Part shown: piece after piece, positions 4,411-27,200 of the stretch
Layout of the letters: each line of letters opens with the position of its first letter
How positions within the stretch are numbered: position 1 is the stretch's first letter
Origin: Methylococcus sp. Mc7
GTDB taxonomy: Bacteria > Pseudomonadota > Gammaproteobacteria > Methylococcales > Methylococcaceae
Reading direction: 5' to 3'
DNA length: 64,000 nt
Assembly (NCBI RefSeq): GCF_019285515.1
Contig: NZ_CP079095.1
Coordinates: forward strand, 2,111,501-2,175,500
The notes under the pieces: model-generated
What the model saw: only the letters and a program-made list of their open reading frames with translations
The model's database searches: none
Told to the model about the DNA's origin: nothing
Position numbers and translations under genes: made by a program

Positions 4411-4443
4411 TCTAATTTAAGCGTAGCTAATGGTTGTGTTAAT

Positions 4444-5480
4444 AGAGTTGCTTCCGTTGAACTAAATGGATTTGCTGTGGTATAAAATGATTAACAACAA
4501 TCGAATGATGTCAGCCAATGATTTTTGAAAAGTTCATGGAAGAAACCAGTGAGCGTACCGTCAGAGCCCTGATCGGAATGAGTAAGGCTCAATTCGCCAA
4601 GCTTTGCCCTATCTTTGAGGAGGCCCATGCGGAGATTCAGCAAGAACGCGTTCAGCAAGGCGAAATAAAACGGGTACCCAAAGGTGGCCATGTGGGCTAT
4701 CTCGATCGGATAGATAAGAAGCTGTTCTTCATTTTGCATTACCTCAAGACCTACTGTACCTTCGATGTCCTGGGCTTTCATTTTGGCTTCAGCTCGGGAC
4801 ACGCGCATCGCCATGTGGCGCAACTTCTGCCCGTGTTACGGCGCAGCCTGGCGAAACTTGATCTGCTGCCCGAGCGGGAGCTGACGACCCCGGAAGAGAT
4901 GATGAAGCTGATTGAAAAACATGGAGATATCATCATTGACGGGGTGGAATGCAGTTGCGTCAGGCCGCAGGCTGACGATCAGCAGAAAGCCCACTATAGC
5001 GGTAAAAAAAACGCCATACGGTTAAAACCCTAGTCATTTCGACCCTTGCACGGCAAATTTTGTTCGTTGGAAGTATCGTGGCCGGCAGTGTTCATGATTA
5101 TGCGCTGATGAAGCGATGGTTCGATCCTGCCTTATCATGGTTTGACGGTGCCGATGTCTGGTTGGATTTGGGGTTCTTGGGGGCCGCTTCCGATTATGGG
5201 AATAAAGCCAGAATTCACCTGCCTCATAAGAAACCCAGAGCCTCCAAGAACAATCCTCATCCCGCGTTGGCAGATCAACAAAGGCGCGAGAACAAAAAGC
5301 AAGCGCGAACTCGCATCTCCGTCGAACACTCCATTGGAGGAATGAAGACCTTTCATTGCTTGATGCATCGCATTAGAAACCGACTCAGTATATTCATAGA
5401 TAGCTTTTTCGGGCTTGGCGCCGGCCTTTGGAATCTAAAAATTTCTTTGTAATCATGCGGTTATCATCGGAAACAACTCT
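4444..5480 (+). mobile_element. IS5-family insertion sequence
   Basis: A 1037-bp element with imperfect 17-bp terminal inverted repeats: AGAGTTGCTTCCGTTGA at 4444-4460, and on the minus strand AGAGTTGTTTCCGATGA from 5480 to 5464 (two mismatches). It is flanked by the 3-bp direct repeat AAT at 4441-4443 and 5481-5483. A short duplication fits some IS5 subgroups. It contains one transposase coding region split across two frames. The following 5484-5692 is AT-rich and I see no gene in it. Confidence 0.75.
4518..5452 (+). CDS. IS5-family transposase split by a -1 frameshift at A8
   Basis: The first frame, 4518-5033, has an N-terminal helix-turn-helix region (FGFSSGHAHRHVAQLLP) and the start of the DDE domain (IIDGVECSC, where the catalytic Asp is expected). 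It ends at a TAG after GGT followed by eight A residues (5001-5011). Slipping back one base on the A run gives a continuous reading KKKRHTVKTLVIS into the second frame, which runs to 5452 and holds ADVWLDLGFLG and the C-terminal Glu-containing region RISVEHSIGGMK. Either frameshifting or slippage on the A tract makes the full protein, or the copy is broken. The sequence alone does not decide. Confidence 0.75.
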
Positions 5481-5692
5481 AATGATGTCAAGTTATCTTC
5501 GTGATGCGCTCAACGAATAACTCGGGGCCATTTGCCCCATCATTTTTCTTGGTAAAAAAAGTTTGTGCAGTCTACATAATAGATTATGTTGCCGGCTATG
5601 CTGTGTATCTATTATAACGTATAATGTATTTCATCTGCCTTTGGATGTGGGAAAAGTTAATATTTGTAGTTACATTTTGATCTATGGATAAA

Positions 5693-7768: not shown

Positions 7769-8413
7769 TAGAGTTGTGTACGTTGATTTTCCGTCATGCG
7801 GTTCAAACCACCGGCTTTCAGCCGGTCAGCTTTGGGTGGATTTTGATTTGGTCAAAAAACTAAAATTACTCTGGTGGTAGGTAACGATATGTCCACTTCG
7901 AGGGCGAGCGCCTTCCTATGGAATTCATCGGTGAGATTTAGAGTTGGAACTACGCGCCAGTTGCTTAGCATATTGCCGTTAACTCCATGATCGAGCCCTG
8001 TTGGGGCACGTAGGCGCGATTAGTGTGCCATTTTCGCTGAGGCACCCGATGGCGCACCTTGCGCTTATTCAATCAGAGGTCCGTGGAGGTCCGCTACACC
8101 CGTTTGTGGTTCCAGCGTGATGGCCCAGCGGCCGGGCGAGGCCGCAGCACTTCGACAAGCCCGGCCGCGGCCGACGCTGGATACATCTCCGTCTGTAGGA
8201 AGTTTTTGATCTCGCGGTCTTCCTCGGAGGTTTTCGTGGCCCGGGCTAGGGACGCCAGTATTGAGGCAATTTGACCATTTTGCAAGCTGTCCTTACTAAC
8301 TGTCAAATCTCTGGGAGTCAATACGCGATCCCGCGGAAGCCTGCCCCTGACCAAGGCTTCGAACCTGTCTTGAAAAATAAGATGTAGTATAGTCAATACA
8401 TCTGGACAAAGAG
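7769..8413. other. Gap with no convincing gene
   Basis: This 645-bp stretch moves from AT-rich island DNA into mixed composition just before a decayed IS. A 100-codon minus-strand frame at 8094-8396 starts MTILHLIFQDRFEALVRGRL, but its last third is low-complexity Pro/Arg/Ala and I recognise no family. It may be the end of a truncated gene. I found no clear ribosome binding site, RNA gene or long repeat. Confidence 0.4.
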
Positions 8414-13156: not shown

Positions 13157-14026
13157 TCAGTAGCACTGGCACTGGCCTTGATACTGCGGCAGGTTGCACA
13201 GGTCCACGTTCATGCAATGGCTCATCGGCGGATGCCAGCAGGTCTTGCCAACGGTGCAGCCGTTGGGGTCGATGACAGTGCCGCCGCCACCGCCGCTCGA
13301 GGCCTGCTTGACGTCCACCTCGAGCTGGAAATAGACGTCGTGCTTCTGGCTGGGGTCGCCGTGCTGGGCGTCTCCGCCCACGGCCACGGTCAGCCAGTCT
13401 TCTTTCCTGCCCTTGAGTTTGAAAACACCGTTGACGCTGGCCACGGTCTGCGGACCGACACCGTTAGCCGACATGTAGCCCGGGTTCGTTTTGTCGGTCC
13501 ACGGGCTGAGCAGCCAGCCCCAGAACGGAGGTGTGGTCTGGAACTGGTTCGGATACCAGTGCAGGTGCGGCCCCTGGTTCTGGTTGCCGCGCCAGACGGT
13601 GAGCGCCGGGATCAGGTCGCTCTTGGCCGGGTCGCTGCCGATGTAGCGCTTGGCGTTGATGGTGACGTTGAGCTTGGTCAGGCCCTGCGCCTTCAGGCCG
13701 CTCAGGTCGATGAGGAACCATTGCGAATGCATGGCCCAGCCATAGCAGGTTCCGGGTACGGCGCCGGCCGGCGGATTGGTCGCCGGGTCGCACCAGGCCA
13801 TGGACTTGGTGGTCGGGATGCTGGCGGGCGAGCCGCCGTCGCCGGGGGTGCCGATGGTCTGGCCGGAATGGACCGAGAGCGCCGGGGCGCCGGACTTGGT
13901 GTCCTTTTTCTGGAAGACGAATTTCGCGGCGTAGGTGATGCCGTCGGCGGGGACGATTTCGACGGCTCCCGCCGGGGTTGCGGCGTAGACGAGGCCCAGG
14001 GCAAGGGCGTTGAAAATTCTTTTCAT
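13157..14026 (-). CDS. Secreted His/Trp-containing protein, paralog 2
   Basis: A 289-residue exported protein (signal peptide about residues 1-21, ending PAGA) closely related to the gene just upstream. They share VHSGQ, TKSMAWCDPA, CYGWAMHSQWFLIDLSGLK, a GNQNQGPHLHWYPNQ segment, FWGWLL and a C-terminal DWLTVAVGGDA. This copy adds a Cys-rich tail (CTVGKTCWHPPMSHCMNVDL ... CQCY) absent from its partner. I recognise no named family with certainty. The conserved His and Trp pairs, and position before a di-heme peroxidase-like gene, resemble MopE/CorA-type copper proteins of methanotrophs only in general layout. Confidence 0.7.
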   Translation of the reverse strand: MKRIFNALALGLVYAATPAGAVEIVPADGITYAAKFVFQKKDTKSGAPALSVHSGQTIGTPGDGGSPASIPTTKSMAWCDPATNPPAGAVPGTCYGWAMHSQWFLIDLSGLKAQGLTKLNVTINAKRYIGSDPAKSDLIPALTVWRGNQNQGPHLHWYPNQFQTTPPFWGWLLSPWTDKTNPGYMSANGVGPQTVASVNGVFKLKGRKEDWLTVAVGGDAQHGDPSQKHDVYFQLEVDVKQASSGGGGGTVIDPNGCTVGKTCWHPPMSHCMNVDLCNLPQYQGQCQCY

Positions 14027-14090
14027 CGTGAATCCTAAACGGGTCGGACTGGAAGGTTGGCGGACGGCTGAATTCGCGGCGCGGGTGGTC

Positions 14091-14840
14091 TCACTGCGCC
14101 GGCTGCTTCTGCTTTACGTCGACGGTTAACTGGTAATTGACGCTGTGTTTGGTGTTGGGATCCTTGGCATCGCCGCCCACCGCGACCGTCAGATAATCCT
14201 GAGTACCGCCCTTGAGCTTGAACTTCCCCATGACCGAGGCGAAGTTCTGCGCGGGGGTCGCATAGGCGCTGTTGTAGCTGATCACATCGCCCTTGACGAA
14301 AGTAGCGCGTTGCAGCAGCCAGCCCCAGAATTCCGGCACGCCCTGGAGTTCGCTCGGATACCAGTGCATTTGCGGTCCCAGCGTCTGGTTGCCGCGGTAG
14401 ACGGTAAGGGCGGGAATGATGTCATTGTTCTTGGGGTCGCTGCCCGCGTGGCGTTCGACACTCACCGTGACCCAGACGGCGCCCAGGCCCTGGCCCTTGA
14501 GTTTGCTCAGGTCGATCAGGTACCAGTTGGCGTGCATACCCCAGCCGTAGCAGCCGTTGGTCTCGTAGCCGGCGGGGGTGACGGCCGGATCGCAATAAGC
14601 CATCGACTTGGTCTGCGGGATCATCGTCGCATTGCCGTCATCGTTCGGGGTGTTGAAAGCCTGGCCCGAATGAAGGGAGGCGGCGGCTGCGCCGGTCTTG
14701 GTGTCCTTCTTGTCGAAGATCAGCTTGGCGGCGTACTGGATGCCATAGCTCGGGTAGACGTCGCCGGCCAGGGCGTTGCCGGCGATACCTGCGATGCCGG
14801 CGGCGGCCGTCATCGAAATCAGCAGTTTGCGGTAGGTCAT
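14091..14840 (-). CDS. Secreted His/Trp-containing protein, paralog 1
   Basis: A 249-residue exported protein (signal peptide to about residue 25, NALAGDVYP) and first gene of the operon. Conserved features shared with the next gene include LHSGQ (His ~57), KSMAYCDPA, CYGWGMHANWYLIDLS (Trp ~100, His ~103, Trp ~106), GPQMHWYPSEL (His ~159), FWGWLL and DYLTVAVGGDAKDPNTKHS. It lacks the Cys-rich tail of its paralog. The start lies 53 bp downstream of a sigma-54 promoter. The function is unknown; metal binding is a hypothesis based on the His/Trp clusters and the di-heme neighbour. Confidence 0.7.
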   Translation of the reverse strand: MTYRKLLISMTAAAGIAGIAGNALAGDVYPSYGIQYAAKLIFDKKDTKTGAAAASLHSGQAFNTPNDDGNATMIPQTKSMAYCDPAVTPAGYETNGCYGWGMHANWYLIDLSKLKGQGLGAVWVTVSVERHAGSDPKNNDIIPALTVYRGNQTLGPQMHWYPSELQGVPEFWGWLLQRATFVKGDVISYNSAYATPAQNFASVMGKFKLKGGTQDYLTVAVGGDAKDPNTKHSVNYQLTVDVKQKQPAQ

Positions 14841-15171: not shown

Positions 15172-16113
15172 ATGTTCGAAGTGCTCATCGGCCGGTCCCC
15201 CGGTTTCGAGGCGCTCATCCGCAGCGCGCGGCTGGTGGCCGCGACCGACGTGACCGTCCTCATCGTGGGCGAAACCGGCACCGGCAAGGAGCTCCTGGCC
15301 CAGGCCCTGCAGGGCCACAGCCTGCGCGCCGAAAGGCCGTTCGTCACGCTCAACTGCGCCGCGCTTCCGGCATCGGTCGCGGAATCCGAGCTGTTCGGCC
15401 ATCGCCGCGGGGCTTTCACGGGTGCGGTTTCGGATTTCTCGGGGCGGCTCGAGACCGCGGACGGCGGCACCCTGTTCCTGGACGAGATCAATTCGCTGCC
15501 TTTGCCGGTTCAGGCCAAGCTCCTGAGATTCCTGGATTCCGGGGAAATCCAGCCGGTCGGCGCGCGTTCGCCGCAGCGGGTGGACGTCCGCATCATCGCG
15601 GCGACCAATGCGAAGCTGGCCGACAAGATCGACGCCGGGGAATTCCGCCGCGACCTCTACTACCGGCTGAGCGTGGTTCCGCTCGAAATTCCCCCCTTGC
15701 GCGAGCGGGGCGGCGACGTGGAACTGCTTCTGCACCACTTCATGCGCCATTTCGCGCAAGCCTACGATATTCCCCCGGCGGTGTTCGGCCGGGGGGCGGT
15801 GCGGCGTCTGAATGCTTATCCCTGGCCGGGAAACATCCGGGAATTGCGGAATTTCTGTGAGCGCCTGGCCATCCTGATGCCCGGCCGGGTGATCGAAGAG
15901 CAGGACCTCCCGGAAGAAGCCCTCCGCTCCGTGCCACGGGCCAAGCCGCTGTTCACGCTTCCGGACGAAGGGCTCGAGCTGGAACAGATGGAAATCGACT
16001 TCATCCGGCAGGCGCTGCAGCGGACCCACGGCAACCGGAGCCGTACCGCCAGGCTGCTCGGCCTCACCCGCGACCAGCTCAACTACCGTATCCAGAAATA
16101 CGGCATCGACTGA
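15172..16113 (+). CDS. Sigma-54-dependent transcriptional activator without sensor domain
   Basis: The 313-residue AAA+ activator has Walker A GETGTGKE (residues 33-40), the sigma-54-contacting GAFTGA loop (80-85), Walker B LFLDE (~101-105), the sensor/arginine region FRRDLYYRLSVVPLEIPPLR, and a C-terminal Fis-type helix-turn-helix (NRSRTARLLGLTRDQLNYRI). The AAA+ domain starts almost at residue 1, as in PspF. There is therefore no receiver, GAF or PAS domain, and control must come from a partner protein or from expression level. It is divergent from, and probably activates, the operon starting at 14840. Confidence 0.9.
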   Translation: MFEVLIGRSPGFEALIRSARLVAATDVTVLIVGETGTGKELLAQALQGHSLRAERPFVTLNCAALPASVAESELFGHRRGAFTGAVSDFSGRLETADGGTLFLDEINSLPLPVQAKLLRFLDSGEIQPVGARSPQRVDVRIIAATNAKLADKIDAGEFRRDLYYRLSVVPLEIPPLRERGGDVELLLHHFMRHFAQAYDIPPAVFGRGAVRRLNAYPWPGNIRELRNFCERLAILMPGRVIEEQDLPEEALRSVPRAKPLFTLPDEGLELEQMEIDFIRQALQRTHGNRSRTARLLGLTRDQLNYRIQKYGID

Positions 16114-16128: not shown

Positions 16129-17886
16129 TCAGGGAAGACGGATGATCCGGCGGGGCGTCCCCGGTGTCAGCGGCGAGTGCCGGCCGAAATAGCGCTCCAG
16201 CGCCGACAGTTCCAGTAGGGCGGCCATGCGGTTCGCGCCCTGGGTGAACATTGTGAAGCCGTCGCCGCCGTCGGCCAGGAAATCGTTGGTGACGATCCGG
16301 TAGATCTTCCCGGCGGCGATCGGTTTGCCGCCGAGCCTGATGGACGCCGGATCGACCTTGTCGCAGGCTTTTCCGCCGGCGTTCCACGCGTATTCGAAAC
16401 CGGCGGAGACCTGCAGAATCCGGTTGGCCGGCTGGCCGTTCGGGCAGCCCGGGAACTGCTGCTCCAGGAGCTGCTCGATCTGCGCGCCCGTCAACGTCAT
16501 CGTGACCAGCGTGCCGCCGAACGGCTGGACGTCGAACGCCTCGCGGTAGCTCACCCGTCCTTTCTTTCCCGGGGCGTAGGAGAAATCCGCCCGCATGCCG
16601 CCGCTGTTCATGAAGGCGATGGCGGCGCCGCCGTATCTGCGGCTGCGCGTCGCTTCCAACTGGGCGTCGGCGATGAGGTCCCCCAGGGCGGATTCGCCGG
16701 CTTCGTTGGGCGTCCGGCTGAAGGTCGCGGTGATGCGGCCGACGATCCGTTCCTCGATCGGCCGGGAAAGCCGGCCATAGTCTTCGACCAGCCGGGTCAG
16801 CAGCGGCTCCGGCCGGATATCGCGGCTTACCACCAGGTTGCGCGCCGCCGTCGAAATCACCTCGCCGGTCTTCGCGTCCAGCACCAGGTCGATGTCGCTG
16901 ACCAGGCGGCCGTAGTCGTGGGCGCTGGTGACGAGCACCGGTTCGCCGGCGGCGTTGGGCAGGCGGCAGGCATACGTCTCATGGGTGTGGCCGCTGACGA
17001 CCAGGTCGACTTCCGGGTCGAGCCGGCGCACGATGCCGGCGATCGGTCCGGAGATGCCGGCGCAGCCGTCGGGGCCGCCGCCGGGATGTCCCCCTTCGTG
17101 GATCAGCACGACGATGGCTTCGATTCCCTGGGAGCGCAGGACGGGAACCAGGGCGTTGACGGTGTCGGCCTCGTCGCGAAATTCGAGGTCTTTGACGCCG
17201 CTCGGCTTGACCAGCTTCGGCGTGTCTTTCAGGGTCAGGCCGATGAAGCCGATTTTCCGGCCGTGGAACTGCTTGACGCCATAGACCGGGAACAGCGTCC
17301 CGCCGCTCTTCCGGTCGAAGACGTTGGCGGCCAGGAAGCGGAAATCGGCGCCTTTGAATTTCCTGCCGACTTTCGAGCGGATCATGGGGCTGAGTCCCTT
17401 TTCCCGGCACGACCGGCCCGCTCTTTCCAGCCGGGGGTGGCATCCTCCCCGCTGCATGCGCAGAAGTTCGTCGCGGCCTTCGTCGAATTCGTGGTTCCCC
17501 ACCGCGTTGAAGTCCAGGCCGAGCAGATTCATGGCCTCGATGGTGGGCTCGTCCTGGAAATTGGCGGAAATGAGGGGGCTGGCGCCGATCAGGTCACCGG
17601 CGGAAACCAGGACGTTGTCCGGATTGGCGGCCCGGAGCTCGCGGACGTGGCCAGCGAGATGAGCCGCCCCGCCGGCGCTGACGGGGGCGCCGTTCAGCAT
17701 GAGGTCGCCGGGTGGGCGCAGGTTGCCGTGGAAATCGTTGATCGCGATGATCTTGACTGCGATGGCCGGCTTGCCGTCTGATGCAACCGTGGGATCAGGC
17801 GCCGCGTAGAGACGGGCGGCAGATATGAGGGACGCGCCGGACAGGGTGGAGGCCGCCAATATCCGTACTATGATGTGATGAGTCAC
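16129..17886 (-). CDS. Secreted 5'-nucleotidase/metallophosphatase (UshA family)
   Basis: The 585-residue exported enzyme (GTG start at 17886, signal peptide to about residue 28) has all the calcineurin-like metal motifs: INDFHGNL, VSAGDLIGASP, GNHEFDEG and VSGHTHETYAC. The C-terminal 5'-nucleotidase domain has NSGGMRADF and DVQPFGGTLVTMTLTG. UshA-type enzymes hydrolyse nucleotides or UDP-sugars in the periplasm. Two Cys-containing inserts (GGCHPRLERAGRSC, CAGISG) may be disulfide-linked. It ends 15 bp from the convergent activator gene. The divergent start region to the ATPase at 18123 is about 230 bp and holds no gene. Confidence 0.9.
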   Translation of the reverse strand: MTHHIIVRILAASTLSGASLISAARLYAAPDPTVASDGKPAIAVKIIAINDFHGNLRPPGDLMLNGAPVSAGGAAHLAGHVRELRAANPDNVLVSAGDLIGASPLISANFQDEPTIEAMNLLGLDFNAVGNHEFDEGRDELLRMQRGGCHPRLERAGRSCREKGLSPMIRSKVGRKFKGADFRFLAANVFDRKSGGTLFPVYGVKQFHGRKIGFIGLTLKDTPKLVKPSGVKDLEFRDEADTVNALVPVLRSQGIEAIVVLIHEGGHPGGGPDGCAGISGPIAGIVRRLDPEVDLVVSGHTHETYACRLPNAAGEPVLVTSAHDYGRLVSDIDLVLDAKTGEVISTAARNLVVSRDIRPEPLLTRLVEDYGRLSRPIEERIVGRITATFSRTPNEAGESALGDLIADAQLEATRSRRYGGAAIAFMNSGGMRADFSYAPGKKGRVSYREAFDVQPFGGTLVTMTLTGAQIEQLLEQQFPGCPNGQPANRILQVSAGFEYAWNAGGKACDKVDPASIRLGGKPIAAGKIYRIVTNDFLADGGDGFTMFTQGANRMAALLELSALERYFGRHSPLTPGTPRRIIRLP

Positions 17887-18122
17887 GGCGTGCTCCGGGC
17901 TGGGAAACCTTCCGGGACCGCATTGTGCGTCGGCTCGACGCCCCGCGCAAATGCTGTTTCCGCTCGTCTGGCAGCGGTTCCCGGCGAGTCACGAAAGTGT
18001 AACGAACCGCCTTTAATCTTCCGGACGATGGACGCCTCCGTATGCCACGCCCTTTCCGCTAATCGAACGACCCGCTTCCGCCGGCCAGCATTTGTGATGA
18101 CCGCCAGGACTTTGGTGTGGAA

Positions 18123-21100
18123 ATGAACACAATGGAAAAGAACCTCTATGCGGCCGATACGATCATGAGCTCCCGGCCTTCCGGCGAGACTCGGGTCAGC
18201 GTGCTGCGGATGCCCGCTCCCGGCCGGCTGCGCGTCAAGGTGGTGGGCCTGTACCGCTGCGACGACATGCAGCGGGCGCTCGAAGCCTTGCCGTCGGAAG
18301 CGCAGGCGCTGCGCATGGTCAGCGCCAATCCGGTCACGGGCAATGCCCTGGTCGTCTTCGATCCGCAATGCCCTCTGGCCGCGGTGCTCACAGCGCTGGA
18401 ACGATGCGCGCTGATTCATGGCGCGCCTTTTCCCGTCCCCAGGTCCAGGCCGGTATCGGGCCGGAGCTCGGCCGAGCCGAAGCGCGGACGGGGCAAGCGC
18501 CCCGCCGCCGCCCCTCGTCCTAAGCTGGCCGCCGTCGTCGGGGACACCGTAAGAAGCAAGGAGAGCTGGCATACCCTGGACGCCGAGGACGTGCTTTCCC
18601 GTCTGTCGGCGAACCGGGACGGCCTCAGTTCCGCCGTGGCCGCGGACAGGCTGCTGCAGTATGGGCACAACGTGCTGACCGAGATCAAGCCGCGTTCGGC
18701 GGTGGCGATGTTCCTGGAGCAGTTCGCCAGCCCCCCCGTCGCCCTGCTGGGGCTTTCCGCCGCCGTATCCATCGCCACCGGCGGCATGGCCGATGCGGTG
18801 GTGATCGTCGGCGTGGTGCTGATCAACGCCGTGATCGGCTACGTGACGGAGGCACAGGCGCAGAAGACGATCGACGCCCTGGGCAAGATCGGCCCGACCC
18901 AGGCCCTCGTCATGCGCGACGGCGTCAAGCGGTCGGTGGCCCTGGAAGACGTGGTGCCCGGCGACATCCTGGTGCTCTCGCCCGGCTCCTACATCGCCGC
19001 GGACGCCCGCCTGCTGGGGAGCAACCAGCTAACCGTCGACGAATCGGCACTGACGGGCGAGAGCCTGCCGGTGAGCAAGCGCCATGCCTTCGTCGGCACC
19101 AAGGACACGCCCCTGGGCGACCGCAAGAACATGTTGCACATGGGCACCATCGTGACGGGGGGGAGCGGCCAGGCGATCGTGGTGGCGACAGGCCGCCACA
19201 CCGAGATCGGCCTGATCCAGTCCCTCGTGGGCGAGGTGAAAACGCCGGAAACCCCTTTGCAGCGCCAGCTCGACGAAATGGGCAAGCAGCTCGCGCTGGC
19301 CTCCAGCGGTATCTGCGTGTTCGTGTTCGGGTTGGGCGTCCTGCGCGGCGCTCCGGCGCTGCAGATGCTGAAGACGGCGATTTCGCTGGCGGTGGCCGCC
19401 GTTCCCGAAGGCTTGCCCACGGTGGCGACGTCCACGCTGGCGCTCGGCATCCGCGAAATGAAGAAGCGCCACGTCCTGGTCCGTCAACTGCCTTCGGTGG
19501 AAAGTTTGGGCTCGGTGCAGACGCTGTGCCTGGACAAGACCGGCACGCTGACCGAGAACTGCATGCGGGTCGTCAGCCTCAAGACGCCAGACCAGGACAT
19601 CGGCTTGTCTCCTTCGGGCGAATTCCGCTCGAACGGGCAGACGGTCCGGCCCGCCGAGGCCGAAGACCTGCGGCGCCTGATGCAGGTGGTGTGCCTGTGC
19701 AGCGAGGTGCAGCTCAACGGCGATTCGTGCCGGGCTGTCCTGCCCGGCACCCTTCGGGCAAATGTAAATCCGCTCCCGGCGGATTTGTCTGGCCGGCCGG
19801 GCCTGGATGGCTCGCCGACGGAAATGGCGCTGGTGGAGATGGCGATACACTCCGGCGAGGACGTCGCGGCCTTGCGCCGGAGCCTGCCGCTGGTCAAGAC
19901 CGTGCACCGGGCCGAAGGGCGGCCTTACATGCTGACCGTCCACGACACCGGCGGCGAGGAGCACCTGATCGCGGTCAAGGGCAGTCCCACTCACGTGTTG
20001 GCGCTGTGCGACCGGCGCATGGAAGGCGGGGTGCCGGTGCCGCTCGACGAGGACGCGCGGGCGGCCATCGTGGAGCAGAATGAACTCATGGCCGGCCAGG
20101 CGCTGCGGGTGCTGGGAATGGCCTACGGCTATTCCAGGGAGACCTCGACCGCGGCGATTTCCGAAAAGCTCATCTGGCTCGGCATGGTGGGCATGGAGGA
20201 CACCATGCGGCCGGGCATGGCCGAGCTGATGGCCCAGTTCCACGACGCCGGCATCGATACCGTGATGATCACCGGCGATCAGAGCGCCACCGCTTTCGCC
20301 TTCGGTTCGCGGCTCAATCTCAACTACAAGAAGCCGCTGGAAATCGTCGATTCGACCAACCTCGACGAGCTCGACCCGGACGTGCTGAAGGGCATCGTGC
20401 GCGACACCACGGTGTTCGCGCGGGTGGCGCCTGCGCAGAAGCTCCGCATCGTCCAGGCCCTGCAGGCCAACGGCCGGGTGGTCGCCATGACCGGCGACGG
20501 GATCAACGACGGCCCCGCCCTGAAGGCGTCCGACGTCGGCGTCGCGCTGGGCAACGGCAGCGACGTGGCGCGCTCCGTCGCCGACGTGGTGCTGGAGGAC
20601 GACAACCTGCACACCATGATCACCGCGGTGCAGCAGGGCCGGACGATCTACCGCAACATCCGCAAGAGCCTGGCGTACCTGCTCAGCGGCAACCTCGCCG
20701 AGATCGAGGTCATGGTGGTCGCGACGGCGATCGGCGCCGGCGAAGCCCTGAATCCGATGCAGCTCTTGTGGATCAACCTCGTCACGGATATCTTGCCGGC
20801 CGTCGGCCTGTCCCTGGAGCCGCCGGAGAGCGACGTGCTCAAGGAGAAGCCGCGCGATCCGAAGGAAAAGATCTTCCGGCGCGAGGATTTGCTCCGGCTG
20901 CTGCGCCAGTCCCTGGTGGTCTCGGCCGGCACGCTCGGCGTCTACGGCTACAGCCTGGCCCGCTACGGCCTGGGGCCCGCGGCTTCGACGAATGCCTTTC
21001 TGACGCTGACCGTGGGACAGATGTTTCACGCCGTCAGTTGCCGGTCCGAGCGGACGACCGTGCTGGATAAAAGGGCGGGCAACCCGGTGCTGGTGTCCGG

Positions 21101-21290
21101 CGTCGCCGCGACCGTGGCGCTGCAGGCATTCGCGGCGGTGTTCCCGCCGCTGCGGGGCTTGTTGCGGCTGACGCCGATCAGCCCGGCGGACTGGGCGGCG
21201 ATCGCGGCCGGCTCGGTGTTGCCGTTCGTGGCCAATGAAGCCATCAAACTGCTCCCTTCCAAGGAACCCGAAAGCGAGAACCGTGCATGA
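18123..21290 (+). CDS. P2A-type cation-transporting ATPase with N-terminal HMA-like domain
   Basis: A ~1055-residue P-type ATPase. Key motifs are intact: DESALTGESLPVSK (~residue 307), PEGLP in M4 (~428), DKTGTLTENCM (~470), GDGINDGPALK (~790), NLAE in M5 and INLVTD in M6, which supply SERCA-like Ca2+ ligands (Asn, Glu, Asn/Thr/Asp). This points to Ca2+ or Mn2+ export. An extra ~110-residue N-terminal region (RLRVKVVGLY ... ALVVFDPQCPL) looks like a heavy-metal-associated fold without its CxxC. The frame opens with GTG 18117; ATG 18123 or 18132 is likelier. Its stop overlaps the next gene's ATG. Confidence 0.9.
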   Translation: MNTMEKNLYAADTIMSSRPSGETRVSVLRMPAPGRLRVKVVGLYRCDDMQRALEALPSEAQALRMVSANPVTGNALVVFDPQCPLAAVLTALERCALIHGAPFPVPRSRPVSGRSSAEPKRGRGKRPAAAPRPKLAAVVGDTVRSKESWHTLDAEDVLSRLSANRDGLSSAVAADRLLQYGHNVLTEIKPRSAVAMFLEQFASPPVALLGLSAAVSIATGGMADAVVIVGVVLINAVIGYVTEAQAQKTIDALGKIGPTQALVMRDGVKRSVALEDVVPGDILVLSPGSYIAADARLLGSNQLTVDESALTGESLPVSKRHAFVGTKDTPLGDRKNMLHMGTIVTGGSGQAIVVATGRHTEIGLIQSLVGEVKTPETPLQRQLDEMGKQLALASSGICVFVFGLGVLRGAPALQMLKTAISLAVAAVPEGLPTVATSTLALGIREMKKRHVLVRQLPSVESLGSVQTLCLDKTGTLTENCMRVVSLKTPDQDIGLSPSGEFRSNGQTVRPAEAEDLRRLMQVVCLCSEVQLNGDSCRAVLPGTLRANVNPLPADLSGRPGLDGSPTEMALVEMAIHSGEDVAALRRSLPLVKTVHRAEGRPYMLTVHDTGGEEHLIAVKGSPTHVLALCDRRMEGGVPVPLDEDARAAIVEQNELMAGQALRVLGMAYGYSRETSTAAISEKLIWLGMVGMEDTMRPGMAELMAQFHDAGIDTVMITGDQSATAFAFGSRLNLNYKKPLEIVDSTNLDELDPDVLKGIVRDTTVFARVAPAQKLRIVQALQANGRVVAMTGDGINDGPALKASDVGVALGNGSDVARSVADVVLEDDNLHTMITAVQQGRTIYRNIRKSLAYLLSGNLAEIEVMVVATAIGAGEALNPMQLLWINLVTDILPAVGLSLEPPESDVLKEKPRDPKEKIFRREDLLRLLRQSLVVSAGTLGVYGYSLARYGLGPAASTNAFLTLTVGQMFHAVSCRSERTTVLDKRAGNPVLVSGVAATVALQAFAAVFPPLRGLLRLTPISPADWAAIAAGSVLPFVANEAIKLLPSKEPESENRA

Positions 21291-22480
21291 AAAAGACATT
21301 CCTCTTCACGTCCGAGGCAGTGACCGAGGGCCATCCGGACTGCGTGTGCGACATCATCAGCGACGCGGTGGTCGACCGGTTCCTGCAGCAGGATCCTTAC
21401 GCCCGGATCGTGACCGAGTGCGCCTTGTCGAAGAGCGTCATCTTCCTGGCGGCGCGCTTCGCTTCGACCGCGGTGGTGGACATCCCCGAGCTGGCGCGGC
21501 GCACCATCGAGGACATCGGCTACCATCCGGAGGAATTCTCCGCGCCGGAGTCCACCGTGGTGACCAGCTTCATCGTGCAGTCGCTGGAAGGTCGCGCCGA
21601 GCGCGACGAGGCGGAAATGACCGACAAGGAACTGGATAAGCTCACCGTCAAGAACCAGGTGACCCAGTTCGGTTTCGCCTGCAGCCAGACGCCCGAGCTG
21701 CTGCCGCTGCCCATCGTGCTGGCCCGCCGCCTGGCGCGGCAGTTGACCGGAGCCAGGCGGCGCGGCGAGGTGCCCTATCTTTCCCCGGACTGCACGACCC
21801 AGGTCGGCGTCGAATTCGACAAGGGCAAGCCGGCGCGCATCCACAGCATCACCCTGATCGCGGGCACCCACGGCGTGCCGGATCTGGGGGTGGAGGAACT
21901 GCGCGGCGATCTCGACAAATGGGTGATCGCGCCGGCGTTCGAAGGCGAGGCGGTGCGGCCCGACGAGAACACCGAAATCTTCGTCAACCCGCGCGGCATG
22001 CTGCACCGCAGCGGCCCGGCGGCGCATTCCGGGATGACCGGACGCAAGAGCGCGAGCGACACCTACGGCGGCTATGCCCGCCATTCCGGTTCGGCCCTGA
22101 GCGGCAAGGGGCCGCTGCGGATCGACCGGGTGGCCGCCTATGCCGCCCGCCATGCGGCGAAGAACGTGGTTGCGGCGGGGCTGGCCGAGGAGTGCGAGGT
22201 CCAGCTCAGTTACACCATAGGCCAGGCCCGCCCGGTGAGCGTGCAGGTATCGACTTTCGGCACCGGCAGCGTGGGCGAGGACGTCATCAAGCAGCGTCTG
22301 GAGAAGCGCTTCGATTTCCGGCTGGGCGCCATCGTCCGTGATTTCAATCTGCGGCGGCTGCCTTCCGAGTACCGGGGCAGCTTCTACCGCATGCTGCCGG
22401 CCTACGGCCATTTCGGGGCTTCTTTCACCGCCCTGCCGTGGGAGCGGACGGACAAGGCGGATCTGCTGGCGGGCGACTGA
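21287..22480 (+). CDS. Divergent S-adenosylmethionine synthetase-like protein
   Basis: The 397-residue protein aligns along the whole length of bacterial MetK (FTSEAVTEGHPD, GMTGRKSASDTYGGYARHSG, VDR-like IDRVAAYAARHAAKNVVAAG, AYGHFG). Several positions that are near-invariant in E. coli MetK differ: the Lys after GHPD is Cys, the Glu of GGEITTSA is replaced in LAARFASTA, the GAGDQG loop reads VKNQVTQ, Lys165 (PDAKSQV) is Thr (PDCTTQV), and Lys269 is Arg. His14, Asp16, Arg244, Lys245, Lys265 and Asp271 equivalents remain. It overlaps the preceding ATPase stop (ATGA). Normal SAM synthesis is doubtful. Confidence 0.8.
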   Translation: MKKTFLFTSEAVTEGHPDCVCDIISDAVVDRFLQQDPYARIVTECALSKSVIFLAARFASTAVVDIPELARRTIEDIGYHPEEFSAPESTVVTSFIVQSLEGRAERDEAEMTDKELDKLTVKNQVTQFGFACSQTPELLPLPIVLARRLARQLTGARRRGEVPYLSPDCTTQVGVEFDKGKPARIHSITLIAGTHGVPDLGVEELRGDLDKWVIAPAFEGEAVRPDENTEIFVNPRGMLHRSGPAAHSGMTGRKSASDTYGGYARHSGSALSGKGPLRIDRVAAYAARHAAKNVVAAGLAEECEVQLSYTIGQARPVSVQVSTFGTGSVGEDVIKQRLEKRFDFRLGAIVRDFNLRRLPSEYRGSFYRMLPAYGHFGASFTALPWERTDKADLLAGD

Positions 22481-22482
22481 GC

Positions 22483-24507
22483 GTGCTTCCTCGGCGCCAG
22501 AGCGGAGCGGCCTCCGCCGCTTGGGGCGAGACGGCGGCGGCACAGCACAGGATCGATTACGGCGAGCGGTTCAAATATCCCGTTCTGGCGCTGGGCGCGT
22601 CGGTGGCCGCGACGCCCTTGGAATTGCCGTTCGCGCCCGCCGTCGTCGGCATCGTCCTCGCGCGCGCCGCTTTTCCCTTGTGGAAGCGCACCCTCGCCAA
22701 CCTGAAAAAGACCGGACGCCCCAACGCCGACCTCCTGGATTCGCTATGGGTTCTGGTCCACGGCGCGACGGGCGAAATGTTCGCGCCCGCCCTGGCCATC
22801 TGCCTCACCGAGACCGCCCGCGTGCTCAGGGATCTGACCGCCATCACCGGCGAGCGGCGCAAGCCCGACATGGTTCCCAACCGGCAGTACTGGATCGAGC
22901 GCAAGGGCAGAAGACGGCTGGTCCTGGCGAAGGACTTGCGGAAGGACGATCACGTTTTCCTCGGACCCGGCGACCGGGTGCCGGGCGATGGCGTCGTGGT
23001 GGGCGGCGACGGGCTGATCGACGAGCACGACCTGCTGGGCGGCGCCAAGCTGGTGCCGCGCACGGCTCTCGACGAAGTCTATGCGGCGTCCCTCCTGACC
23101 CAGGGACGCCTGGTGGTGGAGATGCGCCGGCTGGGGGCGGAAACGCGGATGGCGCAGATGGCCGAAACGGTCAAGGAGCGGCCCTGGAAGGAAACCCGGA
23201 TCAGCAACTACATGGAAGAGATCGGCAACCAGGCGGTGATGCCGGCGATCGGGGCCAGCGCGCTGGTGTTCGCGGTGACCGCCAGCCTGCCCAGGGCCGT
23301 CGCGCCGCTTCAATTGGACTTCGCCCAGGGCATCGGCGTCAGCGCGCCGGTCCCGGTGCTGGCCTCGCTCCATCACGCCGCTCAGAACCGGATTCTCGTC
23401 CGCAGCGGCCACGCGCTGGAGCAGTTGGCGAAGGTGGACGCCGTGGTGTTCGACAAGACCGGAACGCTGACCGAGCGCGGTGTGGAGGTCGGCTCGGTGG
23501 AAACCTCCCTGTCTTCGGTCTCCGAAGACGAACTGCTGTACTGGGCGGCATCGGCGAACCGCTACGTCCTGCGGCCGTTCAGCGCCGCGCTGGTCGCGTA
23601 TGCCGAAGGAAGATGCGTGGCGCTGACGGCCAGTGATCCGCTGGACTACTCCGACTCCGCCGTCGTGTCCCACGTGGACGGGCGCGAAATCGTCGTCGGG
23701 ACGTTCCAGTTCCTGGAGTCGCGCGGCATTCCGGTGGACGCCGAATATCACCGCAGGCACGATGGCGTCATCCTCAATCGCTCGATCCGCTACGTCGCCC
23801 GCGACCGTGAAGTCCTGGGCGCGATTTTCTTCAGCAACGCCCTGCGGCGGGAAAGCGCGGTCACCATCGAGACTTTGAGGCGCATGGGCATATCGTGTTA
23901 CCTGCTGACCGGGGACACCAGCAAGTCCGCAAACGCGGTGGCGTACAAGCTCGGCATCAGGCCGGGCTGCACTTTCGCGGAAGCTTCTCCCGAACACAAG
24001 GTGGAAGTGCTGAGCAGATTGCGCCGGAAACACAGGGCGATCGCCTATGTGGGCGACGGGATCAACGATGCGCCCGCCATGAGCCATGCCGACGTGGCGG
24101 TCTCCTTCCAGCAGGCGACCGATCTCGCCCGGGAGACGGCGGACGTGGTGCTGCTCGACGACGGCCTCCAGGGGCTGTGCTACGGCATCGAGACCGCCCG
24201 CGAGGCGATGCGGCTGGTGCACCAGAACATCGTGGCGGTCACGGCCGCGAACATCGCCGTGGTGGCCGGCGGGGTTTTCTTCAATCTGAGCACGGTGAGC
24301 GCGGTCGTCGTCAACAACGGGGCGGCGCTTCTGGCCTGCCTCAACGGCATGCGGCCGCTTTATGCGGGCGAGCGTAGGGACCCGGAAATACAGCGGACCA
24401 CGCTTCGGGACGACGAAAGCCTGCTGGGCATTCCCTGGCGCAAACGCGGCCGCGCCGGCGTCGATGGCATCCTCGGCGGCCATTCGGGGCACGCCGAGCC
24501 GGCCTAG
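22483..24507 (+). CDS. P1B-like P-type ATPase lacking key motifs
   Basis: From GTG 22483 the protein is ~674 residues. It keeps the phosphorylation site FDKTGTLTERG (~residue 323), TGDTSKSANAVA and VGDGINDAPAMSHADVAVS (~523), with membrane segments before and after. It lacks the A-domain TGES loop (here LLGGAKLVPR, ~183), the CPx metal motif of the P1B transmembrane helix (here GVSAPVPVL, ~286), and the HP dipeptide (here RP). It also lacks N-terminal metal-binding repeats. It may phosphorylate but not cycle or transport normally. It begins 2 bp after the MetK-like gene; a longer in-frame start inside that gene is less likely. Confidence 0.8.
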   Translation: MLPRRQSGAASAAWGETAAAQHRIDYGERFKYPVLALGASVAATPLELPFAPAVVGIVLARAAFPLWKRTLANLKKTGRPNADLLDSLWVLVHGATGEMFAPALAICLTETARVLRDLTAITGERRKPDMVPNRQYWIERKGRRRLVLAKDLRKDDHVFLGPGDRVPGDGVVVGGDGLIDEHDLLGGAKLVPRTALDEVYAASLLTQGRLVVEMRRLGAETRMAQMAETVKERPWKETRISNYMEEIGNQAVMPAIGASALVFAVTASLPRAVAPLQLDFAQGIGVSAPVPVLASLHHAAQNRILVRSGHALEQLAKVDAVVFDKTGTLTERGVEVGSVETSLSSVSEDELLYWAASANRYVLRPFSAALVAYAEGRCVALTASDPLDYSDSAVVSHVDGREIVVGTFQFLESRGIPVDAEYHRRHDGVILNRSIRYVARDREVLGAIFFSNALRRESAVTIETLRRMGISCYLLTGDTSKSANAVAYKLGIRPGCTFAEASPEHKVEVLSRLRRKHRAIAYVGDGINDAPAMSHADVAVSFQQATDLARETADVVLLDDGLQGLCYGIETAREAMRLVHQNIVAVTAANIAVVAGGVFFNLSTVSAVVVNNGAALLACLNGMRPLYAGERRDPEIQRTTLRDDESLLGIPWRKRGRAGVDGILGGHSGHAEPA

Positions 24508-24554
24508 CCGTCGGCGGCCGGCACGGGCACAACGTTCCGCCAGCCGCCGGCGGC
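24507..24554. other. Intercistronic hairpin between ATPase and Cache-HAMP genes
   Basis: Two 16-base arms (24507-24522 and 24539-24554) pair with only two non-Watson-Crick positions. They start at the stop codon of the P1B-like ATPase and end just before the next ribosome binding site (AGGAAGAG). With no T-run, a role in mRNA stability or translation seems likelier than termination. Confidence 0.35.
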
Positions 24555-24570
24555 TGCAGGAAGAGTGCGA

Positions 24571-26034
24571 ATGATATCGATCAGGGTCGTATTCCCCTTT
24601 ATTTTTGCTTTGCAGATATTCGTCGCCGTGGGACTGACGGGGGCCATCGCCTATGTCAGCCACATGAGGGAGGCGCAGGACACCGCCGAGGAGATCCTCG
24701 AATTGATCGGGAATACGATCGACGACCAGCTCTACCGCTTTCTGTCCCTGCCCATCGATATGACCCAGTTTTACGCGGATGGCCTCAGAAGCCAGCCGGA
24801 TCTGCCGCTCGGCGATCTGCTGGAGCCACGGCTGGTGAAGAGGCTCTCAAACTGCGTCTGGACCCAGGCCCGGATGACGCGTTGGGCGAATCTCAGCATC
24901 GCCAATCCCGCCGGGCAGAACCTCAGGTTCGACCGCAGGGAGTACGGCAAGAAGGTGGTCAAGGTGTCCGACATCCGGCGGGGCGGCGCCGTCGAATGGC
25001 GTTTGCTGGAGAATTACGGGAAAGGCGGTGCGCCGCTGGAGGTGCAGGAGGTCGCCTACGATCCCCGTGCCGAGGCGTACTACCAGGACGCGCTGGCCAA
25101 GGGCGGCCTGGTCATCTCGCCGATCCATTTCAGCCCGGTTCTGCAAGGTTCGGCGCCCGTCGTGACGGTGGCCGAGCCGGTCTATGCGGCGGACGGCAGG
25201 CCCAGGGCGGTGGTCTCGTCCGACATCTATCTGGCCGGCATCAGCCGCTATCTTCAGAACCTCCATCTGCCGAATTCCTCCATCGCTTTCCTCCTCGACG
25301 CCGAAGGCCACCTGATCGCCGCCTCGCGCGGCTCGGCCTCGACGCCGGGGCGGCTGCTGCTTGCGGCCGAAAGCACGGATTCCGTCATTCGCAGCACGGC
25401 CGGGTACATCGGCGAGCGCTTCGGCTTTCTCGAGGTTCCGGACGCCGAATCGTTCAAATACGTGCGCGGCGACCAGCACAATTATGTGTACACCGACCAT
25501 CTCCTCACCGACCGGCAGTTCGCCGGTCTCGGCCTGGACTGGAGACTGGCCGTGGTGATCGCGGAAAGCGACTTGATCGAAAATCTCATCACCGGCATCC
25601 ATTCGGCCGCCTGGCTGTCGCTGGGTCTGCTGGTGCTGGCCATCGCCGTGGGTTTGTGGACCGGAGCCTGGATGATCCGTCCCATCCTCACCTTGGGTAA
25701 GGTGGCGGCGGCCCTGGAAAAAGACGAACTCGACGCGCGGCACCTCGACATCCGCCAGCTCGAGCGCGACGCCCGCCGGCGCAACGAATTCGGCGAACTG
25801 GCTCGCATTTTTCTGCGCATGGTCCAGGAAGTGCGGGCCCGTCACGACCTGCTCGAGGCTCAGTTGGAGCAGCTTCGGGTCAACATCGACGAGACCGGCA
25901 CGCAGGCCAAGATCAAGCAGATCACCGACAGCGAATTTTTCGCCGAATTGAAAAGCAACGCCAGGCGCATTCGGGACGAGCGGAAGCGCGCCGCGGAACC
26001 GCCGGTGCGGGCTTTCGTCGAGCATGAACCTTGA
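24571..26034 (+). CDS. Cache-HAMP membrane sensor without output domain
   Basis: The ~487-residue protein has a first membrane segment (~residues 5-28), a long extracytoplasmic double-Cache-like region (~35-335), a second membrane segment (~345-368: LSLGLLVLAIAVGLWTGAWM), a HAMP domain starting MIRPILTLGKVAAALEKDEL and a short coiled coil ending in a charged tail. No kinase, GGDEF, methyl-accepting or phosphatase domain follows, so the signal must go to a separate protein. The neighbouring MinD-like ATPase is a candidate. ATG 24571 is preferred over GTG 24565 because AGGAAGAG is then well spaced. Confidence 0.8.
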   Translation: MISIRVVFPFIFALQIFVAVGLTGAIAYVSHMREAQDTAEEILELIGNTIDDQLYRFLSLPIDMTQFYADGLRSQPDLPLGDLLEPRLVKRLSNCVWTQARMTRWANLSIANPAGQNLRFDRREYGKKVVKVSDIRRGGAVEWRLLENYGKGGAPLEVQEVAYDPRAEAYYQDALAKGGLVISPIHFSPVLQGSAPVVTVAEPVYAADGRPRAVVSSDIYLAGISRYLQNLHLPNSSIAFLLDAEGHLIAASRGSASTPGRLLLAAESTDSVIRSTAGYIGERFGFLEVPDAESFKYVRGDQHNYVYTDHLLTDRQFAGLGLDWRLAVVIAESDLIENLITGIHSAAWLSLGLLVLAIAVGLWTGAWMIRPILTLGKVAAALEKDELDARHLDIRQLERDARRRNEFGELARIFLRMVQEVRARHDLLEAQLEQLRVNIDETGTQAKIKQITDSEFFAELKSNARRIRDERKRAAEPPVRAFVEHEP

Positions 26035-26094
26035 CATTTGACGGCGGCGGCATCGGGCCGCCGCAAACAGCGTGTACCTTCGAGGACTCGAGTC

Positions 26095-26862
26095 GTGGGA
26101 AAAATCATATCCGTACATTCCTTTCGCGGCGGCACCGGCAAGTCCAACGTGACGGCGAACCTCGCCGCCCTGCTTGCCCGCCGCGGCAAACGGGTCGGCA
26201 TCGTCGACACGGACATCCAGTCACCTGGCATCCATGTGCTGTTCAACCTCTCGCCCGAGCGGTTCCGCTACGCCTTGAACGATTACCTGTGGGGGAAATG
26301 CCGGATCGAGGAGGCCGCCTATGACGTCAGCGGCGTGCTGGAAGGACATCGGCTGAAGGAGGGCGGTTCCCTGCACCTGATACCGGGCAGCATGCGTACC
26401 GGCGAGATCACCCGGATCCTGCGTGACGGCTACGACGTCGGCCTGCTCAACAGCGGATTCCAGGAGCTGATGGAGCGGCTGGAACTCACCCATCTGCTGA
26501 TCGACACCCATCCCGGCGTCAACGAGGAAACCCTGCTGTCGATCGCCATCTCCGACATCCTGCTGCTGATTCTGCGCCCCGATCAGCAGGACTACCAGGG
26601 CACGGCGATCACGGTCGAACTGGCGCGCCAGCTCGAGGTGGAGCAGATGTTCATGCTGGTCAACAAGGCGATCAACCCGCAGGATTTCGGCGCGTTGAAG
26701 CAGCGGGTCGAGTCGACCTACCATGTGCCGGTGCTCGGCGTCCTGCCCCTCTCGGGCGACGTCGCCATTCTGGGCAGCGGCGGCATCTTCGCCCTGGCGA
26801 ATCCGGAACACCCCGTGACTTCCGTACTGGAAGCGGCGGCGCAGCGGATCGACGCCGCTTGA
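26095..26862 (+). CDS. MinD/ParA-like P-loop ATPase
   Basis: From GTG 26095 the ~255-residue protein has the deviant Walker A SFRGGTGKSN at its N-terminus, VDTDIQSPGIH (switch), a LTHLLIDTHPGVNEE Walker B, and VNKAINP as the base-recognition motif. This is the SIMIBI MinD/ParA class. There is no clear C-terminal amphipathic targeting helix of the cell-division MinD type. It starts ~60 bp after a Cache-HAMP sensor and 35 bp before a winged-helix gene, so it probably couples membrane signal to a regulatory output rather than dividing chromosomes. A longer TTG start at 26038 is possible. Confidence 0.85.
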   Translation: MGKIISVHSFRGGTGKSNVTANLAALLARRGKRVGIVDTDIQSPGIHVLFNLSPERFRYALNDYLWGKCRIEEAAYDVSGVLEGHRLKEGGSLHLIPGSMRTGEITRILRDGYDVGLLNSGFQELMERLELTHLLIDTHPGVNEETLLSIAISDILLLILRPDQQDYQGTAITVELARQLEVEQMFMLVNKAINPQDFGALKQRVESTYHVPVLGVLPLSGDVAILGSGGIFALANPEHPVTSVLEAAAQRIDAA

Positions 26863-26897
26863 CGAGCCGCTGCCGGTTTCGCAGAGAGGTATCCGAG

Positions 26898-27200
26898 ATG
26901 GCGCCGGAGCGTCCTTCATCCGCCGGTTTCAGGGCCAGCGACCTGCTCATGCTGTCGCCCGCCGAGCGTCGCGTTCTCCAGTGGCTGATGCGGCGCGGCT
27001 CGGGTTCCGTCCGCGAAGTCGCCGAGTGGTTGGAAATGCCGGAGGACGAGGCAGGCAGCCGATTGGACGCGCTGGAGAAGCGGGGTTACGTCGTTGCGGA
27101 GGGTGCCGGCGGGCCGAAGTCATACCAGCCGAAATTCGGCCGTTCGCGCCCGGCGCGGAAGCCGCCATCCGGCATCTGGGGAAAGCTGGACGGCTCGTGA
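26898..27200 (+). CDS. Small winged-helix protein
   Basis: About 100 residues from ATG 26898 (GAGAGG ribosome binding site 8 bp upstream). The core LSPAERRVLQWLMRRGSGSVREVAEWLEMPEDEAGSRLDALEKRGYV is a MarR/ArsR-like winged helix in which the second helix-turn-helix and wing are clear. The C-terminal ~35 residues are basic and Pro-rich (KSYQPKFGRSRPARKPPSG), which may bind DNA or a partner. It is the last gene of a six-gene co-directional run and could be its local regulator or an adaptor. No ligand-binding domain is present. Confidence 0.7.
   Translation: MAPERPSSAGFRASDLLMLSPAERRVLQWLMRRGSGSVREVAEWLEMPEDEAGSRLDALEKRGYVVAEGAGGPKSYQPKFGRSRPARKPPSGIWGKLDGS

Follow-up and report, generated by a model that had tools for sequence, protein, structure and literature searches.

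A run of six co-directional genes, hereafter A to F, was analysed in the genome of Methylococcus sp. Mc7, within a stretch of 64,000 nucleotides (positions 2111501-2175500 of contig NZ_CP079095.1, part of a complete 4.0-Mb genome), which is referred to as the window and whose own numbering is used throughout. The six genes are two neighbouring modules, namely an older pair, A-B, associating a predicted calcium pump of the P2A type with a protein derived from the S-adenosylmethionine (SAM) synthetase MetK, and a younger set, C-D-E, to which F is added in Methylococcus. As a whole, the picture drawn from these sequence comparisons, and put forward with an even chance of being right, is that of a Ca2+ pump linked to Pho control, provided with a MetK-derived regulatory subunit and sometimes having the younger sensor module beside it. 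The features of the locus are as follows.

17987..18003, + strand: Pho-box-like direct repeat AGTCAC-N5-TGTAAC with an 11-bp period, 5' of A (11/12 positions).
18123..21290, + strand (start at 18117 or 18123): gene A, P2A-type (SERCA/SPCA-like) cation pump, predicted Ca2+ ATPase, from Pfam/NCBIfam, PDB matches and Ca2+-site residues.
18195..18419, + strand: N-terminal ferredoxin-like HMA_2-type domain of A, from PF19991 matches, AlphaFold2 (AF2) and Foldseek.
21287..22480, + strand: gene B, MetK-derived, probably not a methionine adenosyltransferase, from residue changes; ATGA overlap with A.
22483..24507, + strand (start uncertain, the reading frame opening at 22438): gene C, P1B-like degenerate pump, from motif losses.
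24571..26034, + strand: gene D, Cache-HAMP sensor with two predicted transmembrane segments, from Pfam; in the same eight genomes as C.
25732..25986, + strand: C-terminal coil or tail of D, common to CNB and receiver proteins next to E homologues, from tblastn and alignment.
26095..26862, + strand: gene E, MinD/ParA-like ATPase with an RGGTGK Walker A motif, from Pfam/NCBIfam and orthologue alignment.
26898..27200, + strand: gene F, small winged-helix protein with a weak TrmB-like match, only in Methylococcus among the loci compared.

All six open reading frames (ORFs) are present and, after the start codons were checked, those chosen give a 4-bp overlap followed by gaps of 2, 63, 60 and 35 bp, as a preliminary description of this DNA had it. 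Its domain labels likewise agree with Pfam and NCBIfam, by which A is a P2A ATPase, B a full-length member of the MetK family with three S-AdoMet_synt domains, C of P1B type, D a dCache_1 plus HAMP protein (dCache being below its cut-off), E of the ParA/MinD family and F a weak winged helix. Between the window copy and other Methylococcus, the ratio of non-synonymous to synonymous substitution rates (dN/dS) is 0.05-0.25 for A-E and, more loosely, 0.29-0.48 for F, so that A-F are more than chance ORFs.

The division into two modules comes from a search of 61 genomes, i.e., the present one and 60 relatives, in which a B-type MetK was called at 56% identity or more, and an A-type pump at 49% identity or more with E<=1e-100. 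B-type MetK was found in 31/61 genomes, canonical MetK being clearly apart (39-41% identity at full length, 34-45% for fragments), and the A-type pump in exactly the same 31, other P2A pumps reaching at most 41% identity. In the fetched loci of relatives, window included, A lies directly 5' of B in 32/34, the other two being cut at contig ends. Orthologues of C, D and E co-occur in eight genomes only, namely five of the six Methylococcus and three further ones (G006, G015 and G020), leaving 23/31 A-B genomes without them; all eight carry A-B (probability 0.0027 if independent, kinship ignored). In these three further genomes, C-D-E stands apart from A-B, in the order C-D-E in G015 and D-E then C in G006 and G020, and E is also found without C-D in G008. 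The succession of C-D-E-F after A-B is met only in Methylococcus, in 5/6 genomes (window included), the sixth (G003) having A-B without C-F; the order is C-D-x-E-A-B in Ca. Methylumidiphilus (L158), and F is confined to Methylococcus among the loci compared. Because of this distribution, together with the adjacency in L158, C-D-E is considered a second unit, standing beside A-B in two lineages and in two orders. The six genes are thus not conserved together, which the preliminary description had named as grounds for refuting its six-gene set, and a single six-gene module is rejected on this distribution. Of that description there remains an altered MetK tied to a P2A pump, more strongly than its own evidence could show and with core replacements that are the same from phylum to phylum, and, between the halves, the weaker link given by the eight genomes and by L158.

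How the two halves came to be neighbours in Methylococcus may be understood in two ways. The adjacency could be incidental, resulting from a shared insertion site or from read-through with no joint function, a possibility to be held tentatively; the modules are separable and differently spread and F evolves loosely, as would then be expected, but the second, differently ordered adjacency in L158 and the short B-C gap of the window (2 bp with a C start at 22483) speak against it. Slightly more doubtful is the proposal that, in Methylococcus, the whole run works as one system, in which D and E would act as sensor and controller of pump A by way of B and C: adjacency in five of the six genomes, the presence of A-B in every C-D-E genome and the L158 arrangement go along with it, but A-B stands alone in G003, the modules are apart in G006, G015 and G020, and most A-B genomes do without C-D-E.

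The older pair itself is rare and widely scattered. A species-level scan (one genome per species) with B-specific motifs yielded 50 loci, mostly from Methylococcales, the remainder from Nitrosovibrio, two cyanobacteria, two planctomycete metagenome-assembled genomes (MAGs), other gammaproteobacteria and a deltaproteobacterial MAG that is cut upstream of B. Searching 369 gammaproteobacterial genomes by motif gave nine matches including the window, one of them (L210) a chance pattern match without a B gene, and a hidden Markov model search of 398 Pseudomonadota genomes (E<=1e-120) only two, again including the window; from this last yield, the A-B pair is therefore considered rare and patchy. 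Among the 58 loci of the two motif searches, which overlap with the 34 loci of relatives and are not summed with them, 57 encode B, and in 54/57 A (45-90% identity) is directly upstream on the same strand; in the other three (L156, L186 and L195), the sequence begins at or inside B, at contig ends. The two genes are also inherited together: in trees of 43 loci, built without partial loci and without L161 and L164, whose crudely extracted sequences had in-frame stops, distances for A and B correlate with r 0.94, against 0.27 for the best of 2000 permutations, and 18/18 strongly supported splits of the B tree are strong in the A tree, with 0 strong conflicts. Their commonest spacing over the 43 loci is the 4-bp overlap. 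No description of the pair was recognised in the open-licence literature searched for it and for its genes.

Around the pair, a gene of the Na/Ca-exchanger family (Ca2+/H+ antiporter family) lies directly downstream on the same strand in 7/60 loci. Of 147 neighbouring ORFs listed, 142 were analysed, and within the 25 most frequent of 97 families the commonest are HMA_2 proteins (16) and Na_Ca_ex (9). An HMA_2 protein gene is convergent just after B in 13/60 loci (L172, L174-L177, L182, L183, L193, L194, L206, L208, L212 and L218), and in L176 the other strand carries a Ca2+ antiporter gene some 1 kb beyond B. MetK on plasmids was also looked at and set aside, all 167 records having <60% identity. 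As for control by a riboswitch, no Rfam family reached its gathering score in seven loci, and the sole Rfam match of the window stretch at E<=1 was discarded as a chance match (E 0.13).

Gene A is predicted from its residues to encode a Ca2+-type efflux pump with catalytic motifs and Ca2+ site intact. In its orthologues, DKTGT, GDG[IV]ND and the glutamate of TGES are each present in 43/43, as are, in SERCA numbering, the Ca2+ ligands E309, N768, E771, N796 and D800, while T799 is kept in 37/43. The best PDB relatives are SPCA1 and LMCA1 (E about 1e-137), then SERCA. A further trait is an N-terminal domain of about 75 residues, ferredoxin-like, which matches PF19991 (HMA_2) at E<=0.1 in 16/17 N-termini, the window protein doing so weakly (E 0.023). 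Its AF2 model is well resolved over residues 31-100 (pLDDT block means 95-98); Foldseek returned no match at E<=0.001 for it, the top four by E being RNA-polymerase subunits, after which HMA-type domains rank with E 0.014-0.09 and TMt up to 0.74.

With respect to B, 31 distinct proteins found by whole-length similarity, with no motif, were compared with 20 distinct canonical MetKs, the underlying 32 and 21 rows having the window's B and its canonical MetK twice. E. coli MetK was not among the aligned rows; its numbering was applied to the canonical ones with a constant shift of 2, a check being made on the residues named in PMC3853416. The replacements E55 to R, K165 to T, D238 to H and K269 to R are each found in 31/31, and D118 is exchanged for N, H or S in 31/31. 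In a wider set of 55 B proteins, the counts are 54/55 for E55 to R, 54/55 for K269 to R and 55/55 for D238 to H, the last partly selected by the search pattern, the motif-free count being 31/31; the ancestral E55, D238 and K269 are each found in 0/55, Q98 in 24/55 and D118 in 1/55, and F230 is variable (F in 28/55). Conversely, H14 and D16 are kept in 54/54 rows with a letter at these positions, and E42, D163, R244, K245, K265 and D271 in 55/55. Besides H14 and D163, the residues kept presumably correspond to the Mg2+/triphosphate site. In MetK, E55 and D238 bind the amino group of methionine, Q98 and K269 its carboxylate, D163 and D238 hold the ribose, and H14 ensures acid catalysis (PMC3853416). 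Because of these roles and of the pattern of change and retention, the methionine pocket of B appears rebuilt and its phosphate pocket kept. All 55 proteins group in a single clade, separate from the canonical rows (support 0.915), and the dN/dS of B within the genus (0.06-0.12) is among the lowest of the locus. Moreover, the present genome has one canonical MetK, 41% identical to B, and a canonical MetK is also found in 29/31 B-bearing genomes (two as fragments), the remaining two (G011 and G026) being drafts. B is thus a maintained protein, probably with another job than SAM synthesis.

What this job might be leaves room for an alternative to a regulatory subunit, namely a new enzyme that would still cleave ATP or tripolyphosphate, or adenosylate an anionic acceptor instead of methionine, the product or the phosphate released aiding the pump in Ca2+/phosphate balance. 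The kept residues, i.e., the Mg2+/triphosphate set along with H14 and the ribose aspartate D163, fit such an activity, the changes of E55 to R and D238 to H put positive or neutral groups at the methionine amino site, as for an anionic ligand, and the Pho-like boxes presented below agree with it; nonetheless, D238 is gone and with it one of the ribose-holding residues, F230 varies, none of the 31 distinct Methylococcales proteins has K165, and no obvious recurring pathway emerges from the 25 most frequent families of the neighbouring ORFs, which makes this enzyme rather improbable. That B is simply a second SAM synthetase isozyme is very improbable, since, despite a score above the metK equivalog cut-off, the 41% identity to the other MetK of the genome and the M. 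capsulatus Bath genome paper, in which MCA0450 and MCA0139, both MetK genes but of divergent phylogeny, are counted as redundant, no member examined retains the methionine-contacting E55, D238 or K269, a canonical MetK is nearly always there as well, and B is strictly linked to one pump clade.

The proposed link with phosphate comes from the region upstream of A. A Pho box is made up of two direct repeats of 11 nt, whose core in E. coli reads CTGTCAT (PMC4415409). Using the half-site TGT[CA]A[TC], two copies at an 11-bp period and a score of at least 11/12, such repeats precede A in 13 of 43 non-duplicate upstream regions (the near-duplicates L146, L147, L149, L153 and L168 having been removed) on the operon strand, compared with 0 on the reverse strand, 0-2 at each of 11 other spacings, and a mean of 0.35 and maximum of 2 in random windows. 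In a hold-out of seven unused loci, some of which share a genus with the first set, four were positive on the forward strand, two of these being from one genus, with 0 on the reverse and 0-1 at other spacings; L049 and L050 (score 10) were excluded as close to L152 and L153. The box of the window lies between A and a divergent 5'-nucleotidase gene and is oriented as A, and its 14-base core, TCACGAAAGTGTAA, is identical in 6/6 Methylococcus genomes. No Pho box was found, the best scores being 8-9/12, ahead of C or D in three loci of module 2, ahead of a B-less A-type gene in G017, or on the side of the 5'-nucleotidase gene. Taken over the family, with the spacing and strand controls and the hold-out, the signal of the repeats upstream of A is clear, although most single loci stay under the threshold. 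The A-B operon is probably switched on in many lineages by PhoB under phosphate limitation.

The present genome contains four exact Pho-type repeats, against 0 for the reversed-pattern control; three of them precede DnaJ-like, methane-monooxygenase-like and FtsH-like ORFs (by eye), which are not phosphate genes, and the fourth (L226, position 1501) is followed, some 50 bp further on, by the gene of a phosphate-selective porin (Porin_O_P). The divergent gene that shares the box-bearing intergenic region with A encodes a UshA-like 5'-nucleotidase (16129-17886, - strand).

In the second module, C and E also depart from their families in a conserved manner. In eight full orthologues of C, TGES is lost in 8/8, CPC in 8/8 and the histidine of SEHP in 7/8, being kept in L133, while DKTGT is kept in 8/8 and GDGxND in 7/8 (GEGVND in L044). 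With dN/dS of 0.11-0.18, these conserved losses make C a maintained pseudo-pump; the loss of catalytic residues first noted for two members of the run, i.e., B and C, is in both cases real and conserved among orthologues. E exhibits RGGTGK in place of KGGxGK in 9/9 orthologues, the rest of the P-loop being kept; the lysine replaced by arginine is the signature lysine of the deviant Walker A motif. E homologues (E<=1e-30) were present in three of 369 gammaproteobacteria, window included. D had been described as a sensor without output, which is too simple: it is a Cache-HAMP sensor indeed, and its C-terminal region of about 85 residues recurs in CNB and receiver proteins adjoining E homologues. 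By tblastn, this tail has matches in G209 and G320 (38.6% over 83 aa, E about 3e-11), where E homologues adjoin a HisKA-receiver protein, and it was also aligned with the CNB protein of G008, where the E homologue adjoins that protein as well as arginase-like, RsbW-like and STAS genes (functions by eye). Since D, CNB and receiver proteins next to E homologues share the tail, it is likely the contact to the MinD-like ATPase, which would explain how D signals without an enzymatic output domain. Three loci (L136, L220 and L221) with RGGTGK MinD-like ATPases by CNB or receiver proteins bearing one tail may belong to a wider sensor/MinD family.

Several observations weigh against a Pho-linked Ca2+ pump with a MetK-derived subunit. 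Regarding B, it scores 334.8 bits, above the NCBIfam metK cut-off of 309.4; the loss of K165 is not universal, since the wider set has T in 37 and K in 12 of 55; and its AF2 model is poor (pLDDT 57) and was not used. Regarding A, the identity of the ion rests on residues and Mn2+ is also a candidate, SPCA-type pumps carrying both Ca2+ and Mn2+; one pump of the A clade, the second copy of G017 (L217), has no B neighbour. Regarding the Pho link, 30/43 upstream regions are without a box at the threshold, the box of the window has one mismatch (11/12), an earlier and stricter score over all 48 regions averaged 9.5 versus 9.0 for shuffles with the window region not outstanding, the half-site was relaxed after that score, and phosphate-type genes are scarce among the 142 neighbouring ORFs, i.e., PhoU (2), PPK2 (1) and alkaline phosphatase (1). 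The B-less pump gene of G017 (L217, 8059-11244) is near polyphosphate kinase-like and PstS/PstB-like genes, as read by eye.

With these reservations, the Pho-linked pump and its subunit would work as follows. Module 1 would be an old two-gene operon, patchy and phylum-crossing, in which A would be translated together with B, B being most likely a dedicated cytosolic regulatory subunit, presumably in contact with the pump, that would bind Mg-ATP or another polyphosphate and set pump activity. In some lineages, the operon would run on into the Ca2+/H+ antiporter gene and, with Pho induction, this continuation would mean that A-B ties Ca2+ export to phosphate or energy status. In module 2, the Cache-HAMP receptor D would relay its signal through the conserved tail to the MinD-like ATPase E, with the P1B-derived pseudo-pump C, perhaps still phosphorylatable, as membrane partner; beside module 1 in two lineages, it may modulate it. 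More speculatively, and with some hesitation, a MetK pseudoenzyme (or a new ATP/polyphosphate-handling protein) could serve a Ca2+ pump under Pho control as its built-in gauge of phosphate or energy, i.e., a two-gene device spread across phyla to which a sensor module has been added in some methanotrophs.

Bacterial Ca2+ homeostasis is poorly understood and, to our knowledge, hardly any regulatory subunit of a bacterial P2A pump is known; the pump/MetK-like pair provides a concrete candidate for such regulation. The B family, with members in methanotrophs, cyanobacteria, planctomycetes and one genus of nitrifiers, also shows that models apply the name SAM synthetase to proteins that probably do not deserve it. 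Should the Pho link be true, calcium and phosphate physiology would be joined in a testable two-gene system.

Other features of the window lie upstream of the locus. A sigma-54 activator with AAA+ and Fis-type helix-turn-helix domains and no receiver domain (15172-16113, + strand) is encoded next to the locus in each of the six Methylococcus genomes compared. Two adjacent, similar-looking and secreted-looking proteins (by eye) without a Pfam match are encoded at 13157-14840 (- strand). Finally, positions 4001-8000 have a GC content of 0.44-0.45, against 0.57-0.72 in other 2-kb blocks, and may be an island; an acyltransferase-like ORF (by eye) lies inside this low-GC stretch, at 5696-7825.

Compared with known systems, A shares catalytic motifs and Ca2+-site residues with the P2A Ca2+-ATPases SERCA, SPCA1 and Listeria LMCA1, and differs by its HMA_2-like N-terminal domain and its fixed MetK-derived gene partner; relative to other P2A pumps, it is a separate clade, with at least 49% identity to the window protein versus at most 41% in the 61 genomes. 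C has in common with P1B heavy-metal ATPases DKTGT and, but for one orthologue, GDGxND, whereas TGES, CPC and nearly always the SEHP histidine are gone. E is, like MinD/ParA ATPases, a P-loop ATPase of that family, but has arginine for the signature lysine and neighbours sharing a C-terminal tail on Cache-HAMP, CNB or receiver modules. B retains from MetK, or methionine adenosyltransferase (MAT), the three MAT domains together with H14, D16, E42, D163, R244, K245, K265 and D271, whereas E55, D238, K269 and nearly always D118 are replaced, and its gene adjoins the pump wherever the upstream side is present. B also resembles the eukaryotic MATX by description (PMC3923989): MATX is, like B, a divergent MAT paralogue with a patchy distribution, but eukaryotes mostly have either MATX or MAT, whereas most B-bearing genomes have a canonical MetK as well and B is linked to a pump.

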